NCBI GenBank assembly: GCA_021286935.1
Contig: JAJTBI010000007.1
Span: forward strand, 1 to 64,000
DNA: 64,000 nucleotides
Source of the DNA: Geobacteraceae bacterium
GTDB taxonomy: Bacteria; Desulfobacterota; Desulfuromonadia; Geobacterales; Pseudopelobacteraceae
Reading direction: 5' to 3'
In this document: positions 2,680-57,017 of the stretch, piece by piece
Position numbering within the stretch: position 1 is the first letter of the stretch
Layout: every line of letters starts with the position of its first letter
The notes under the pieces: generated by a model
The model's database searches: none
The model's input: only the letters and a program-made list of their open reading frames with translations
Told to the model about the DNA's origin: nothing
Translations under genes and position numbers: made by a program

Positions 2680-3408
2680 TTATTCTCCAATGCCGACCAC
2701 CTGAAACCGCGGATCAAGATCAAAGGTCTGTTGCACCAACTGTTGAGTAAGTATCTCGGTGGGCAGGCCATCGGCCAGTAGCTGCCCCTGGCGGATCACC
2801 AGCAGGCGATCCAGGTTGCGAGCCAGGATCAGGTCATGCAGGGAAAGCAGGATGGTCAGGTTGTGGGTCTGGCAGAGGCCCCGCAGCAGGGTCAGCAGTT
2901 CATACTGGTAACGCAGGTCTAACCCGGCCAGCGGTTCATCCAGCAGCAGGGTCTTGCCACCCTGGGCCAGGATCATGGCAATAAAGGCCCGCCGCCGTTC
3001 ACCGCCGCTGATCTGGGACAGCGGGGTCTGTTCATGGCCGTCCAGCCCCACCGCTGCCAGTACCTCCTGGCAGGAAAGCAGATGATCTTTACGGGCTGCA
3101 GCACGGCCCATCTCCACCAGTTCACCCACCCGAAACGGTAACGGCGCTTCAATGGACTGCGGCAGGTAGCCCAGGCGGGTGGCTCGCTCTTCACCCTTCC
3201 AGGAACGGACCGGTTTGCCATCCAGCTCCACCTGTCCCACCGTGGGTGTCAGCAGACCGGCACCCAGCCGCAACAGGGTGGATTTACCGGAGCCGTTGGC
3301 GCCGATCAGACCCACCAGCTCACCCTTGGCCAGATTGCAGGAAAACTGTACCACGCAGGGGGCGTTACCGTAACTGAAACAGACCTGATCAAACCTGAGG
3401 CTGCTCAT
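2680..3408 (-). CDS. btuD: Cobalamin-type ABC importer ATP-binding protein (BtuD)
   Basis: The 242-residue ATPase has Walker A G-A-N-G-S-G-K-S-T (about residues 36-44), signature I-S-G-G-E-R-R-R, and Walker B L-L-L-D-E-P-L-A-G-L-D. A Q-loop L-P-Q-S precedes the signature and an H-loop L-S-L-H-D follows Walker B. The family imports iron chelates, haem or cobalamin. The cobalamin assignment rests on context: it is the last gene of btuB-btuF-btuC-btuD behind a B12 riboswitch. Its ATG overlaps the TGA of the permease gene (ATGA). Confidence 0.85.
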   Translation of the reverse strand: MSSLRFDQVCFSYGNAPCVVQFSCNLAKGELVGLIGANGSGKSTLLRLGAGLLTPTVGQVELDGKPVRSWKGEERATRLGYLPQSIEAPLPFRVGELVEMGRAAARKDHLLSCQEVLAAVGLDGHEQTPLSQISGGERRRAFIAMILAQGGKTLLLDEPLAGLDLRYQYELLTLLRGLCQTHNLTILLSLHDLILARNLDRLLVIRQGQLLADGLPTEILTQQLVQQTFDLDPRFQVVGIGE

Positions 3409-7295: not shown

Positions 7296-7445
7296 CAGAT
7301 GGAGCGGTCTTCCGGCTACGGGCTTCCTAGTAGTCCGCCTTCCCAGTTTCCCAGTGGCTTTTTGCGCGTAACGCAATGGACGTTCGTTCCCTTCACGGCT
7401 GCGGGGCAGCGGGGGCATTTAACCCCTCTTCCTCATCTCCATCTG
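7296..7445 (-). promoter_or_regulatory. Cobalamin riboswitch upstream of btuB
   Basis: Read on the minus strand, the aptamer is closed by a perfect 9-bp stem (CAGATGGAG at 7445-7437 with CTCCATCTG at 7304-7296). It contains the GCCCCCGCTGCCCCGCAGC core and ends with a B12 box, AGCCGGAAGACCGC, near 7303-7317. A small variable hairpin, TTGCG with CGCAA, lies at 7361-7375. The btuB ATG follows 25 bases after the 3' arm with a GGGAGG site in between. This position fits translational repression when cobalamin is plentiful. Confidence 0.92.
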
Positions 7446-8333: not shown

Positions 8334-9432
8334 TGCAGGCTCCTTTTTTTACCCGTTCGAACCGTTCCAGTCCGGCTTCTGCATGGCTGTTCTGGCAGGT
8401 TACCCACTGCTGCAGTCTGCTCAGGGCTGCACCGCTAGCCAGGGTTTCCTGTGCCATGGTAACCCCCTGTTTCAGATCCGTCGCCTTACCGGCAGTCCAG
8501 AGCAGCGCACCGGCATTCAGGCTGACAAACGCCTCACAGGCACTGAAACGACCGGTACCGCTAATAACCTGCATGAAACGCCGGATCTCCTCTTCCCGTG
8601 CGTTACAGGCGGCAATCTCCTCACCGCGACGGCAGGCCAGCCCCAGATCTTCGGGGACGACGGTGAACTGTTCCTGCTGTTCTCCCTGAAAGCGGCAGAT
8701 GGTGGAGGGGCCGCAGATTGACAGCTCATCCATTCCCAGACCGCTTGCGGCATCACTGCCGTAGACCACCATGCCGTGTTGGTAACCGATTTTAGCCATG
8801 ACCGCTGCGGTGTCAGGTACCATCTGGCGGCTGTAGACCCCCCGTAGCGCCTGACGAGGGCGGGCTGGATTGGCCAGTGATGCTGCAATGTTAAGGGTTG
8901 AACCAAAGCGGATCTGGGAGAGGATGCGCCCCAGACCGCCGGGGTGGACTGCCGGGGACATGCCGTTAAACAGGCCGATCCCGGCCTGACGGATGCTGTC
9001 GGCCACCTGCGCAGGGGTACAGTCCACATCAATCCCCACTGCTTCCATAATATCCACGGTGCCGCAGCGTGAGGTAATGGCCCGGGCGCCGTGGCGCGCC
9101 ATGACTACCCCGTTGGCTGCCCCTACAATGGCAGCGGCACTGCTGACGTTGAAGGTCTTGAAACCGTCCATGCCGGTGCCGGAGTTCTCAAACAACCCGT
9201 CCGGCAGATCTTCCGGGTGGATCGTGTCAAACTCGTCAATGGCCTGCCAGGCCCCGGCGATCTCGTCAACGGTTTCGCCCTTGGCGGTCAGGGCCGCCAG
9301 CAAGGCCCCCTGCTGCAGCGGACTTTGTCGGTCCAGCATCAGTTCAAGGAACAGCAGATAGCTCTGCTCCTGTGTCAGGTCCTGTTTCTCAATCAGCAGC
9401 TGAATCTGTGCACCAAACTGTTCAGGGGTCAT
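8326..9432 (-). CDS. Anthranilate phosphoribosyltransferase-family (TrpD-like) protein in a B12-controlled operon
   Basis: The 368-residue protein has the two-domain fold of TrpD-type transferases. It shows an N-terminal helical domain, then G-T-G-M-D-G-F-K-T-F-N-V-S-S (PRPP loop), then R-H-G-A-R-A-I-T-S-R-C-G-T-V-D and E-A-V-G-I-D-V. It lacks neighbouring tryptophan genes. It sits between the dehydrogenase and cbiZ with overlaps on both sides and behind a B12 riboswitch, so a role in cobamide lower-ligand handling is more likely than tryptophan synthesis. That role is my inference. The start at 9432 overlaps the dehydrogenase stop (ATGA). Confidence 0.8.
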   Translation of the reverse strand: MTPEQFGAQIQLLIEKQDLTQEQSYLLFLELMLDRQSPLQQGALLAALTAKGETVDEIAGAWQAIDEFDTIHPEDLPDGLFENSGTGMDGFKTFNVSSAAAIVGAANGVVMARHGARAITSRCGTVDIMEAVGIDVDCTPAQVADSIRQAGIGLFNGMSPAVHPGGLGRILSQIRFGSTLNIAASLANPARPRQALRGVYSRQMVPDTAAVMAKIGYQHGMVVYGSDAASGLGMDELSICGPSTICRFQGEQQEQFTVVPEDLGLACRRGEEIAACNAREEEIRRFMQVISGTGRFSACEAFVSLNAGALLWTAGKATDLKQGVTMAQETLASGAALSRLQQWVTCQNSHAEAGLERFERVKKGACNA

Positions 9433-10433
9433 GGTGTGCAGGCCTCCGGGTAAAGGTGGATCTTCATGCACTGACGGCTGGCCACCAGCTCAAGGGCCTC
9501 AGCCAGTCGGGACAGCGGCATCCGATGGCTAATCAGGTCACGCACCTCAAGCCTGCCGGACTGCAGCAGGGCAATGGCCTGTCTGCCATGGCGGTAACAA
9601 CAGCCGTAGGCCCCCGCCACCGTCTGTTCCAGATAATGCAGTTGGTTAAAATCAGTAGTGATAGCAGGGGTTTCTTTTGAGAGGCCGGAAAAGACCACCA
9701 GCCTGCCACGGGGGGCCAGACAGGCCAGGGCCTGTTGATAGGCGTCATTATTGCCGACCGCCACCACGCAGACATCAAACAGCTGGTCAGGTGGTTCAGC
9801 TACCCCCTTGGCCAGTTCTCTGCGTTGCAGATCCGGCTCAATCACGGTGGGCAGGGCATCGTAGGCAGTTGCAGCGCGGGCCAGCAACTGTCCTGCCGGA
9901 CCGCCGCCCCAGATGGCAATGGTCTCAGTGGGAGCCAGTCGGGCCAGTTCCAGGGCATTCAGGCAGCAGGAGAGCGGCTCGGCAAAGACCGCCTGCTCAT
10001 CACTGAGCCCTTCCGGTAAGGGGATCAGGCTTTTCAGTGGCGCAACCACGTAACCGGCAAAGCCGCCGTCACGGTGAAAGCCCATAATCCGCATGAAGCG
10101 GCAGAGATTTTCAGCTCCAGCTTTGCAGGCTGCACAGCTGCCGCACCATTCACCGGGGTAGACATAACATCTCTGATTTAAAAGAGTTGTATCACATCCC
10201 GGTCCCAGCGCTACCACCTCCCCCACCACCTCTTCGCCGGGAATACAGGGCAGCACCAGATCCCGATGTCCAACCTGGATGATCTTTAGGTCGGTGCGGC
10301 AGAGACCGGTTACGGTGACACGCAGCAACACCTCGCCCGGTCCCGGTTGGGGAACCGGACGTTGTTCAAACTGAAACGAGCCGATCTCACGCACGGAGAC
10401 CGCCTGCATGGTGGCGGGTAACGACTGCATCAT
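9429..10433 (-). CDS. Zinc-dependent medium-chain dehydrogenase (MDR family), B12-controlled
   Basis: The 334-residue protein has the MDR layout. A catalytic-zinc Cys lies in T-G-L-C-R-T-D, a P-G-E-E-V-V-G segment follows, and four structural-zinc cysteines lie in C-G-S-C-A-A-C-K-A-G-A-E-N-L-C. The nucleotide-binding motif is the glycine-rich G-G-G-P-A-G-Q-L-L-A. Zinc-ligand and cofactor residues look intact, so it should be an active NAD(P)-dependent dehydrogenase. The substrate is unknown. The first of two tandem ATGs (10433) overlaps the stop of the small leader ORF, and there is no good ribosome site of its own, so translational coupling is likely. Confidence 0.82.
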   Translation of the reverse strand: MMQSLPATMQAVSVREIGSFQFEQRPVPQPGPGEVLLRVTVTGLCRTDLKIIQVGHRDLVLPCIPGEEVVGEVVALGPGCDTTLLNQRCYVYPGEWCGSCAACKAGAENLCRFMRIMGFHRDGGFAGYVVAPLKSLIPLPEGLSDEQAVFAEPLSCCLNALELARLAPTETIAIWGGGPAGQLLARAATAYDALPTVIEPDLQRRELAKGVAEPPDQLFDVCVVAVGNNDAYQQALACLAPRGRLVVFSGLSKETPAITTDFNQLHYLEQTVAGAYGCCYRHGRQAIALLQSGRLEVRDLISHRMPLSRLAEALELVASRQCMKIHLYPEACTP

Positions 10434-10510
10434 GACAAACTGGAGCTGGAGAGTAAGGCTGTGGCTGAAATTATTGGGAAATATGACGCGGATTGCTGCT
10501 GGTTGTACAT
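10430..10510 (-). CDS. 26-codon leader ORF after the second B12 riboswitch
   Basis: I read this short frame directly. ATG at 10510-10508 follows a strong GGGGGAGG site with 6-base spacing. The peptide is M-Y-N-Q-Q-Q-S-A-S-Y-F-P-I and ends in a Ser-rich tail. Its TGA (10432-10430) overlaps the dehydrogenase ATG as ATGA. The riboswitch therefore appears to control a leader frame to which the dehydrogenase is coupled. It could also be a spurious frame with the real start elsewhere. No homology is recognised. Confidence 0.5.
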   Translation of the reverse strand: MYNQQQSASYFPIISATALLSSSSLS

Positions 10511-10532
10511 GAGTTGCCTCCCCCGAAGCCTA

Positions 10533-10813
10533 CGAATGGAGCGGTGTTCCGGCTCAGGGCGACCTACTTACCCACCTTCCCAGGGTTTCCCCCAGTGGTT
10601 TTACCTGAGCCGCTTCCATTTCGAGGCGCTGGCTGCGTTGGCTCATCGTCGGCTTCCTCAACGTACTGATCTAGTACGCCTCGTCGCCTCCTCTGTGCCG
10701 TCTTGCCATCATCCTTGAACTGAAACCGACGAACTGATGCAGGTTGGGCTTTCGTTCCCTTTACGGCTGCGGGGCAGCGGGGGCCTTTAACCCCTCTTCC
10801 TCGCTTCCATTCG
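10533..10813 (-). promoter_or_regulatory. Cobalamin riboswitch with a repeat inserted in a variable hairpin
   Basis: On the minus strand the aptamer is closed by CGAATGGA (10813-10806) with TCCATTCG (10540-10533). It carries the same GCCCCCGCTGCCCCGCAGCCGT core as the btuB switch. The B12 box reads AGCCGGAACACCGC, one base different from the btuB copy. The variable stem (CAGGT/ACCTG pairing, 10740-10744 with 10603-10607) holds a roughly 117-base dispersed repeat instead of the short loop of the first switch. It leads the leader ORF, dehydrogenase, TrpD-like and cbiZ genes. Confidence 0.88.
10611..10727 (+). repeat. Dispersed palindromic repeat family, copy A (inside riboswitch)
   Basis: The block begins CTTCCATTTCGAGGCGCTGG and ends CATCCTTGAACTGAAAC. 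It has the central CGTACTGATCTAGTACGCC palindrome shared with copies at 32751-32873 and 35308-35426, all in the same orientation on the plus strand. The ends can pair with each other, so the whole unit can form a long hairpin. This copy lies between the arms of a B12 riboswitch side stem. Confidence 0.85.
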
Positions 10814-11952: not shown

Positions 11953-14577
11953 ATGACCAACCAGAACCAACAACCGGTACGACATAGCCATGGCGGCAAT
12001 CTGCGCGGCCTTAGCGTCTTGTCAGGGATTCCGCAATCAGATCTGATTGATTTTTCAGCTAATATCAACCCGCTGGGGCCGCCGGACTGGCTGCGGCCGC
12101 TGATTGAAAGCCGGATCAGTGACCTGATCCACTACCCTGACCCGGATGCAACCGAGCTGGTGGAGGCGATAGCTGGCTTGCACCGGTTACCGGCTGACCA
12201 GATCCTGGCGGGTAACGGCGCTACCGAGCTGCTGCACCTGCTGCCCCGTGCGCTGGGTTGCTCGTCGCTGCTGCTGCCCCGTGCGCTGGGTTGCTCGTCG
12301 CTGCTGCTGCCGGTGCCCAGTTATGCTGATTATGAGGAACCGGCCAGACTCTCCGGCCTGAGTATTGAGCAGTTGCCACTTTCCCCTGATACCGGCTTTG
12401 TACTTGATCCAACCTGCCTGGTTCCGCTCTTGAAACCGGCCCAACTGGTGCTGCTGGGCCAGCCCAATAATCCCACCGGTCGTACCTTTGATGCTGAAGC
12501 CCTGCGTCTGATTGCACAGGATCATCCAGCCACCCTGTTTGTGGTGGATGAGTCGTTTATCGGCTTTACCGGCGGCAGCCGCAGCCTGCAGCAGAACCGG
12601 CCTGATAATATCCTGATACTGACCTCTTTGACCAAGCTGTACGCCATTCCCGGCCTGCGGCTGGGTTACCTGACCGGTGCTGCAAAGCATATCCAGCAGC
12701 TTAAAACCTATCTGCCTAACTGGACTGTCAACAGCCTAGCCCAGGCGGTAGGGGCACGAGCGGTGCAGGATAGGGAGTACCTGCAGCGGACCCGCAGCTT
12801 TGTCAGCGGGCAGCGGGAGTCGCTTGTGGCTCTACTGTCCAGTCTGCCCGGCCTGACGGTCTTTCCCGGTGAGGCCAACTTCCTGCTGCTGCGTCTGGAT
12901 CACCCCACGCTGGATGCACCTCAGCTTGCCGAACAGACCCTGCAACAGGGGATCGCCCTGCGGGTCTGCAGTAATTTCAGCGGGCTTGATCAGCGTTACC
13001 TGCGGGTGGCGGTGCGGACCGAAGCGGAACAGCAGCGGCTGTACGGCATCTTGCAGACTATTTTGGAGCCGTCCCGACCACGGACGGTCAAACGCCAGAC
13101 CCCGGCGATCATGTTTCAGGGCACCGGCTCCAATGCCGGCAAGAGCATCCTGACCGCTGCGCTCTGCAGGATTTTGAAACAGGATGGCCATGACGTGGCG
13201 CCGTTCAAGGCCCAGAACATGTCGCTCAACTCCTTTGTCACCCGCAACGGCGGCGAGATGGGACGGGCCCAGGTGCTGCAGGCCCAGGCCTGCCGGCTTG
13301 AGCCGGATGTGCGGATGAACCCGGTGCTGCTCAAGCCCAACAGCGAGACCGGCTCCCAGGTGATCCTGTGCGGCAAGGTAACCGGCACCACAGATTTCCG
13401 TTCCTATGCCCAGCAGCGGCAACAGGTCTGGTCCACGGTGCAGCGCTGCTACGATGAACTTGCAGCAGAACATCAGGTGATGGTGCTGGAAGGGGCAGGC
13501 AGCCCGGCCGAGGTCAACCTTAAGGCCAATGATATCGTTAATATGCGGATGGCGCAGTATGCTCAGGCGCCGGTGCTGCTGGTGGGGGATATTGACCGGG
13601 GTGGCGTCTTCGCCTCCTTTGTCGGCACCATGGAGGTCTTGAACGAGGCAGAGCGCAGACAGATTGCCGGGTTTGTGATCAATCGTTTTCGGGGAGACGC
13701 ATCCCTGCTGGGTGATGCCCTTGAGTACACCCGCTTTCATACGGGCAAGCCGGTGCTGGGCACGGTCCCCTATTTGCGGAACCTTGGCTTGCCGGAAGAG
13801 GATTCAGTCTCCTTCAAACAGGGGCTACTGGCGGCTGGTGAAAAAGATCTGCAACTAATTGATATTGCAGTGCTAGATCTGTCCCATATCTCCAACTTTA
13901 CTGACCTTGACCCGCTGGGGCTGGAGCCGGATGTGGGGTTGCGGATTGTCCGTAGCGCAGCAGAACTGGGCCAGCCCGATGCCCTGATCCTGCCTGGCAG
14001 CAAGAATACCCTGGCTGATCTGGCCTGGCTACAGCAGACCGGTTTGGCAGCAGCGGTTCTTACACTGGCACAGGCGGGCAAGGTTGAGATTGTCGGCATC
14101 TGCGGTGGGTTTCAGATATTGGGTAACAGGATCAGCGACCCCCATGCCATTGAATCCGGGGCAGGTGAGCAGCAGGGCTTGGGGCTGCTAGGGATCAACA
14201 CGGTTATGGCAGCAGACAAAACCACCTGCCAGACCAGCTGTCGCCATATCCCCTCTGGCTGTATGCTGAATGGCTATGAGATCCACCACGGCATCACCAG
14301 TGGCGACCAGCTCCAGCCGTTGATCACCAGCCCGGATGGGAATCTTCTGGGTGTTGGCTCTGACAACGGCCTGGTCTGGGGCAGCTACCTGCATGGCCTG
14401 TTTGATGCTGATCCGTTCCGGCGCTGGTGGCTGGACCGCCTGCGACAGCGCAAAGGCTGGCAGACTAACGGCAGTATCCGGGCCTGTTATGATCTTGAAC
14501 CAGCCTTGGACCGGCTGGCTGACTGTGTGCGGGGCAGTTTGGATATGCGGGAGATTTATAGGCTGTTGCGGTTGTGA
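11953..14577 (+). CDS. cobDQ: Fused CobD (threonine-phosphate decarboxylase) and CobQ (cobyric acid synthase)
   Basis: Residues 1-370 are a class I/II aminotransferase-fold CobD domain. It shows N-I-N-P-L-G-P-P at 38-45, Q-P-N-N-P-T-G, and the PLP lysine in T-S-L-T-K-L. Residues 380-874 are CobQ/CbiP with the N-terminal G-T-G-S-N-A-G-K-S synthetase loop, a C-G-G-F-Q-I-L-G amidotransferase Cys and the G-S-Y-L-H-G-L-F His motif. CobD makes aminopropanol phosphate and CobQ amidates the corrin side chains. The two joined activities normally come from separate genes. An exact 33-bp tandem duplication lies within the CobD part. Confidence 0.9.
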   Translation: MTNQNQQPVRHSHGGNLRGLSVLSGIPQSDLIDFSANINPLGPPDWLRPLIESRISDLIHYPDPDATELVEAIAGLHRLPADQILAGNGATELLHLLPRALGCSSLLLPRALGCSSLLLPVPSYADYEEPARLSGLSIEQLPLSPDTGFVLDPTCLVPLLKPAQLVLLGQPNNPTGRTFDAEALRLIAQDHPATLFVVDESFIGFTGGSRSLQQNRPDNILILTSLTKLYAIPGLRLGYLTGAAKHIQQLKTYLPNWTVNSLAQAVGARAVQDREYLQRTRSFVSGQRESLVALLSSLPGLTVFPGEANFLLLRLDHPTLDAPQLAEQTLQQGIALRVCSNFSGLDQRYLRVAVRTEAEQQRLYGILQTILEPSRPRTVKRQTPAIMFQGTGSNAGKSILTAALCRILKQDGHDVAPFKAQNMSLNSFVTRNGGEMGRAQVLQAQACRLEPDVRMNPVLLKPNSETGSQVILCGKVTGTTDFRSYAQQRQQVWSTVQRCYDELAAEHQVMVLEGAGSPAEVNLKANDIVNMRMAQYAQAPVLLVGDIDRGGVFASFVGTMEVLNEAERRQIAGFVINRFRGDASLLGDALEYTRFHTGKPVLGTVPYLRNLGLPEEDSVSFKQGLLAAGEKDLQLIDIAVLDLSHISNFTDLDPLGLEPDVGLRIVRSAAELGQPDALILPGSKNTLADLAWLQQTGLAAAVLTLAQAGKVEIVGICGGFQILGNRISDPHAIESGAGEQQGLGLLGINTVMAADKTTCQTSCRHIPSGCMLNGYEIHHGITSGDQLQPLITSPDGNLLGVGSDNGLVWGSYLHGLFDADPFRRWWLDRLRQRKGWQTNGSIRACYDLEPALDRLADCVRGSLDMREIYRLLRL
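12238..12303 (+). repeat. Exact 33-bp tandem duplication in the CobD domain
   Basis: Bases 12238-12270 and 12271-12303 are identical and encode L-L-P-R-A-L-G-C-S-S-L twice (residues 96-106 and 107-117). The unit keeps the frame and lies right after the G-N-G-A-T-E-L-L cofactor-phosphate loop. Perfect identity suggests a recent event, since silent sites have not diverged. Confidence 0.95.
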
Positions 14578-32706: not shown

Positions 32707-32750
32707 AGGATACCGCTTTCTGGCGAAGATAGAGCTCTTCGACCTTGTTC

Positions 32751-32873
32751 CAATTCCAACTCAAGGCGATATCATCGTTGGCTCGTCTTCGGCTCCTCAG
32801 CGTACTGTGCTGTACGCCTGCGTTGCCGAATTCCTTGCCGCCTTGATCTCATCCTTGATTAGAAATTGGAATT
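32751..32873 (+). repeat. Dispersed palindromic repeat family, copy B
   Basis: The copy begins CAATTCCAACTCAAGGCG and ends CATCCTTGATTAGAAATTGG. The central segment is CAGCGTACTGTGCTGTACGCC. The ends pair as CAATT/AATTG and CAAGG/CCTTG, so the whole unit can fold into a long hairpin. It lies between rhlE and the uup-type gene and might act as a transcript end or a processing site. Confidence 0.85.
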
Positions 32874-56736: not shown

Positions 56737-56847
56737 TCAAGATCCTCGCTCATCTTCGCCTTGCGGCAGGATTTAGCACCTGACGCCCCTACCGGGACCG
56801 GTTGCTGTGGTTTCATAGGGCCTTATCCCTCCACCACTCTTGATAAG
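56737..56847 (-). promoter_or_regulatory. SAM-I riboswitch aptamer
   Basis: On the minus strand, CTTATCAAGAGTGG and GAGGGATAAGGCCCTATGA are the SAM-I hallmarks. CAGCAACC and GGTGCTAAATCC follow, and TCAAGA pairs with TCTTGA to close the aptamer. It controls metX through the terminator downstream. Confidence 0.93.
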
Positions 56848-57017
56848 CAGGTTGTGGGCGATAAAATACGTGAATGATCTCTGAGAGTCAATGTAAATTG
56901 AGAGGGTTACCGTTCAATTGGATAGCTCTGGAAAATGCCGTTACCATCTGGTATAACATTCAGGATTTCTGGAACAGACAAACTACATCACGATACGACA
57001 GAATCGGGAGGATGGTT

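Follow-up and report, generated by a model that had tools for sequence, protein, structure and literature searches.

Palindromic repeats inside the genes of structured RNAs are already known. In Rickettsia, palindromic elements (RPE) of 105-146 bp have inserted into the genes for tmRNA and for the M1 RNA of RNase P (PMC2229807), and in the pneumococcal trp operon a BOX element separates two T-box riboswitches (PMC3049150). Bacterial MITEs and REP-like repeats have been reviewed (PMC10969869) and include Chunjie, a 178-235 bp element in Geobacter uraniireducens. Cobalamin riboswitches have a P6 accessory region that varies greatly in length and a kissing loop formed by L5 and L13 (PMC9600662). 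Here, we describe a cobalamin riboswitch that has a dispersed palindromic repeat, designated family I, inside the aptamer itself. It is encoded within a 64,000 nt stretch of DNA (the window) from a Geobacteraceae bacterium (contig JAJTBI010000007.1).

As with the RPE, a palindromic repeat resides in a structured, functional RNA that it apparently does not destroy, but the repeat is a different one, the host is a ligand-binding mRNA leader rather than a stand-alone RNA gene, and independent events have occurred in several lineages with several repeat families. Like the BOX element, it is a dispersed repeat that forms part of a composite 5′-leader whose regulatory function seems to have been preserved, although the BOX element lies between two riboswitches and the repeat described here lies inside an aptamer, within one helix. 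The core, B12 box, P1, L5 and L13-like hairpin are those of the RF00174 class, and the insertion site is the variable arm of that class. Where the published account describes P6 length variation, one source is identified here, a captured mobile palindrome, and this suggests a concrete origin for part of that variation. Family I is, like the MITEs and REP-like repeats, short, multicopy, palindromic, non-coding and mostly intergenic, but no target duplication or transposase could be linked to it. With a length of ~120 bp it is set apart from Chunjie by size, not by sequence comparison. A literature search that covered few subscription papers yielded no earlier account of a riboswitch aptamer that contains a dispersed repeat, which is not proof of novelty.

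The explanation that we consider very probable is that a REP/MITE-like palindrome inserted into the loop of the P6 accessory hairpin and is carried there as an extra helix by a riboswitch that still senses its ligand, with selection maintaining the core, recombination redistributing the arm and tolerance determining the site.

The riboswitch and its insert

The riboswitch is encoded on the minus strand, a detail missing from the initial annotation, and the core, closing stem P1 and B12 box ascribed to it there are all present (Table 1). The 5′-core (10745-10810) is 89% identical to that of the btuB riboswitch 3.4 kb away and 89-100% identical to those of relatives, and the B12 box, AGCCGGAACACC, is intact. 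The complementary loops CCCC (L5) and GGGG (L13) are both present, the L13 hairpin being predicted in a fold calculated without pseudoknots. The arms ACCTG and CAGGT do flank the repeat, as had been noted, and the nearby btuB riboswitch has, also as described, a short loop at the same site (TTGCG-TTA-CGCAA). An alignment that includes 11 insert-free riboswitches of the genus places the insert exactly in the variable hairpin that precedes CCACTGG. The riboswitch of the same gene in genome G004 has a short hairpin, GCGC-TTC-GCGC, at this position. The closing arms vary together and still pair, as ACCTG/CAGGT in the window and ACCC/GGGT in genome G010.

Downstream of the riboswitch there follow, in order, a leader ORF, a Zn-dehydrogenase-like gene, a glycosyl-transferase-3/TrpD-like gene, cbiZ, the second cobalamin riboswitch, btuB and a btuF-like gene. 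The window repeats and this riboswitch-gene stretch match plasmid pGLOV01 of T. lovleyi SZ, and the genome is of the Trichlorobacter type (Geobacteraceae). Equivalents of the leader ORF, 19-27 aa in length, are present in 5 species, and the Shine-Dalgarno (SD) sequence of the window ORF is within the riboswitch hairpin, an arrangement like that of the riboswitch-controlled uORF of ppe2 in M. tuberculosis (PMC11260477).

Table 1. Positions of the riboswitch, its parts, the repeat copies and the neighbouring genes. Positions are those of the window unless a locus is named.
Feature	Position	Strand	Basis
Cobalamin riboswitch aptamer with inserted repeat, 281 nt	10533-10813	-	Core identity to relatives; invariant positions kept
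P1 5′-strand, CGAATGGAAGCG	10802-10813	-	Sequence; predicted pairing, P ~1.0 for most pairs
P1 3′-strand, CGCTCCATTCG	10533-10543	-	Sequence and predicted pairing
Segment with B12 box, CCTGAGCCG	10550-10558	-	Sequence and predicted pairing
L5 loop CCCC, suggested to form a kissing loop with L13 GGGG	10771-10774	-	Sequence; pairing inferred
Variable hairpin (P6 accessory), 5′-arm ACCTG	10740-10744	-	Sequence
Variable hairpin (P6 accessory), 3′-arm CAGGT	10603-10607	-	Sequence
Inserted family-I palindromic repeat copy, 118 nt	10613-10730	-	nhmmer E 6.1e-25; alignments
CGGCTCAGG, seen only in the window; fully complementary to the B12-box segment	10604-10612	-	Predicted pairing
L13-type hairpin GCTTC-GGGG-GAGGC, SD (10524-10517) inside	10516-10529	-	Predicted fold; regulatory role inferred
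Leader ORF, 26 aa (MYNQQQSA...), stop overlapping the dehydrogenase start (ATGA)	10430-10510	-	Equivalent ORF in 5 species
Zn-binding dehydrogenase-like gene that follows the riboswitch	9429-10433	-	
Second cobalamin riboswitch (btuB), insert-free with a short hairpin at the corresponding site	7296-7444	-	
Family-I repeat copy	32750-32871	-	
Family-I repeat copy, ~5 nt past a stop codon	35308-35428	-	
Family-II insert (family ~120 bases) in addition to a family-I insert, btuB riboswitches of T. lovleyi and G003	L103:3202-3371; L100 ~3197-3355		

The repeat family and the history of the insertion in Trichlorobacter

The two further copies of the repeat recognized in the window by the initial annotation are indeed present, and positions 10614-10725 of the insert are 86% identical to the copy at 35.3 kb (E = 3.8e-28). 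The window genome has 50 copies of this ~120-base repeat as detected with a covariance model (41 matches by BLAST); there are 223 copies in 15 genomes of the genus, 14 of which have the repeat, and within the order it is found in 105 of 141 genomes and 25 of 29 genera. Thirty aligned copies yield one long imperfect hairpin of 33 pairs in which 94.5% of the cells are paired, versus at most 36% when the alignment is slid, and 21 pairs have changed on both sides. With palindromic, self-pairing ends and many dispersed copies, both features of MITE/REP-like elements, family I is a non-autonomous palindromic REP/MITE-like repeat. CGG flanks several of the inserts on both sides at the P6 accessory hairpin (site A), where the empty site is not clean enough to recognize a target-site duplication. 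No RAYT connection was found for family I: the retrieved flanks of the three Y1_Tnp genes in the draft window genome contain no repeat copy.

Sixteen of 30 family-I copies in the window genome are within ~17 nt of a stop codon, with ORFs called mechanically, and 15 of these 16 are antisense to the adjoining gene. An argument for strand based on G-U versus A-C cells was dropped, as the structure had been predicted on that strand and many gene-adjacent copies are antisense. On pGLOV01, a family-I repeat (L034:6001-6118) overlaps the annotated start of cobN (6102), a start that may be mis-annotated.

Full-length inserts are present at site A in four genomes, upstream of the dehydrogenase gene in the window species and in G010, and upstream of btuB in T. 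lovleyi and in G003. An assembly artefact is ruled out, as these four genomes include the complete T. lovleyi genome. Riboswitches that precede the dehydrogenase gene in G004 and G003 have an empty site, as do their homologs in G007 and G008 and btuB riboswitches; with part of the genus lacking it, the insert is evidently not needed. A sequence pattern for the full-length combination matched only the same four of 277 genomes of the class, and the reversed control pattern matched none of the 277. That a repeat-like block is instead an ancestral part of this riboswitch class, from which the dispersed copies were derived, has practically no chance of being correct given the empty sites in relatives and paralogs, the restriction of the full-length combination to these four genomes, and a family in the genus nearly all of whose copies are elsewhere.

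The comparison rather indicates that the repeat landed in the loop of the P6 accessory hairpin in a common ancestor from which several Trichlorobacter species descend. The four full-length site-A inserts (the window, T. lovleyi and G003 copies being tree loci L005, L072 and L073) form one clade with a support of 0.93, and the simplest reading is therefore a single insertion. The T. lovleyi copy has a dehydrogenase-type 5′-end, yet leads into btuB, and the G003 copy has a btuB-type 5′-end; such mixed ends indicate that recombination among the riboswitches of the genus later moved the insert-bearing arm. A different riboswitch, on plasmid pGLOV01, has an internally deleted remnant of the insert of ~50 nt. 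Tandem cobalamin riboswitches are present in G003 and on pGLOV01 (L101, L102, L105).

Conservation of the core and predicted folding

The 11 insert-free riboswitches share 92 invariant positions, and every one of these (91 positions for the pGLOV01 remnant) is also conserved in the five riboswitches with inserts, the doubly inserted ones included. Between species the insert itself has diverged by 5-8%; were the core to diverge by 7%, all 92 sites would remain unchanged with a probability of ~0.001 per lineage, a value that assumes independent sites and separate lineages and is a guide only. In fold predictions, which address secondary structure and ignore tertiary contacts and pseudoknots, the insert pairs with itself at 0.57 per base and with sequences outside at 0.05, and the window riboswitch with the insert retains P1, P4, the CTGG hairpin and the SD hairpin. 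Pairing within P7/8 of the window riboswitch is predicted to decrease from ~0.57 without the insert to 0.10 with it, and the CTGG hairpin of G010 is predicted at only 0.03. With these helices predicted and the core fully retained, the aptamer is predicted still to fold with the insert in place. The proposal that a mobile palindrome has been tolerated in a regulatory RNA is thus supported, the block being neither ancestral nor accompanied by a loss of the predicted fold.

Searched with the Rfam Cobalamin model (RF00174), the window riboswitch gives two partial, wrongly registered matches of 23.2 and 21.8 bits, below a cut-off of 31.5 bits that is a criterion for detection and not a biological one. 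The insert-free ortholog in G004 scores 55.8 bits, and the low score in the window is therefore attributable to the insert. All four full-length site-A riboswitches of Trichlorobacter are below the cut-off or missed; riboswitches with an inserted repeat can be overlooked when genomes are annotated with standard covariance models. Failure to be recognized might also be expected of a broken, decaying riboswitch, but this is very improbable, as all five insert-bearing copies have kept every invariant position, P1, the B12 box, the SD hairpin and the leader ORF are intact in both the window and G010, and the length of the insert accounts for the score.

The insertion may instead have changed regulation, through folding speed, RNase access or ligand response; in the window, 9 bp formed between CGGCTCAGG and the B12 box might bring this about. 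With the insert, 8 of these 9 pairs are predicted at ~0.6-0.67; without it, this particular pairing is impossible and most B12-box positions are less paired. This complement of the B12 box was, however, recognized post hoc, half of it is supplied by the arm sequence CAGG, it is absent from G010, which has the same insert, and from G004, and the core positions reveal no relaxation. A regulatory change is consequently unlikely.

In the explanation that we prefer, the repeat, because it folds back on itself, would form an extra helix that extends an existing arm, a structure predicted by folding and presumably adopted by the molecule, and would remain outside the ligand pocket and the L5-L13 switch. 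With the insert so positioned, selection would have continued to act on the conserved core, and the riboswitch has most likely kept its ability to sense a corrinoid and to gate the SD sequence of the leader ORF and dehydrogenase gene.

Independent captures and the choice of site

Repeats have also been captured in cobalamin riboswitches at a different site, from a different family and in other lineages. In G003 (C29:321341-321646), a family-I copy occupies a different variable hairpin, after GAGGGGTGTA (site B), in the upstream member of a tandem pair that still scores 88.8 bits with the Rfam model. The nearest relatives of this insert are ordinary dispersed copies (up to 89.7%). In the btuB riboswitches of T. 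lovleyi and G003, GCCC and the B12 box are separated by a further insert, 135-146 nt long, whose central part belongs to a different dispersed family (II); this family has 28 matches in the T. lovleyi genome and 32 in that of the window.

When all genomes were scanned for a gap of 135-165 bases at site A, nine matches were obtained, eight of them with an Rfam cobalamin match in the locus. One, upstream of a TonB receptor in a Smithellaceae MAG (L170), contains a family-I copy at site A (nhmmer E 1.2e-10), with 83-87% identity to other copies in its own genome. In a Xanthobacteraceae MAG (L175) the same site is occupied by an unrelated repeat found at ~40 places in that genome, mostly with 87-95% identity. 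Four more loci (L168, L171, L173, L174) are cobalamin riboswitches of unrelated bacteria with long P6 accessory arms, and apart from a self-inverted match inside L173, these inserts have no further copies in the available DNA of each. The remaining matches were rejected, L167 and L169 as ordinary riboswitches matched out of register and L172 for having no Rfam match.

These captures amount to an experiment, repeated by nature, that reveals where a riboswitch can accommodate an insertion of 110-150 bases. Every insertion found is outside the conserved core, and there have been three independent events in the genus versus 0.55-0.82 expected (P ~0.02-0.05), a rough estimate based on 325 copies of the two families, 46 riboswitch matches and an assumed 8-12% of intergenic DNA. 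Together with the unrelated repeat at the same site in Xanthobacteraceae, this would be consistent with a transposase that targets hairpin loops, making the riboswitch arm a preferred landing site beyond mere tolerance. Survivor bias would, however, generate the same pattern, many other copies are located directly after stop codons and the three Y1 transposase genes have no nearby repeat copy, so that targeting of this kind appears improbable. Tolerance combined with chance nearly suffices for the insertions observed, and a mild preference for hairpins is possible. The site would accordingly be determined mainly by tolerance, with insertions into the core lost and those into the arm surviving. 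Captured dispersed palindromes could conceivably be a general source of new helices for cobalamin riboswitches at the P6 accessory arm, and possibly for other riboswitches at their permissive arms, with some adding switching contacts such as the anti-B12-box strand of the window, but we regard this extension as less likely than not.

Elsewhere in the window, an ORF on the plus strand (11953-14577) appears, judged by eye from its sequence, to be a CobD-like/CbiP-like fusion, and contains a short tandem duplication in which RALGCSSLLLP is present twice. A SAM riboswitch is located at 56747-56849 on the minus strand (73.7 bits).
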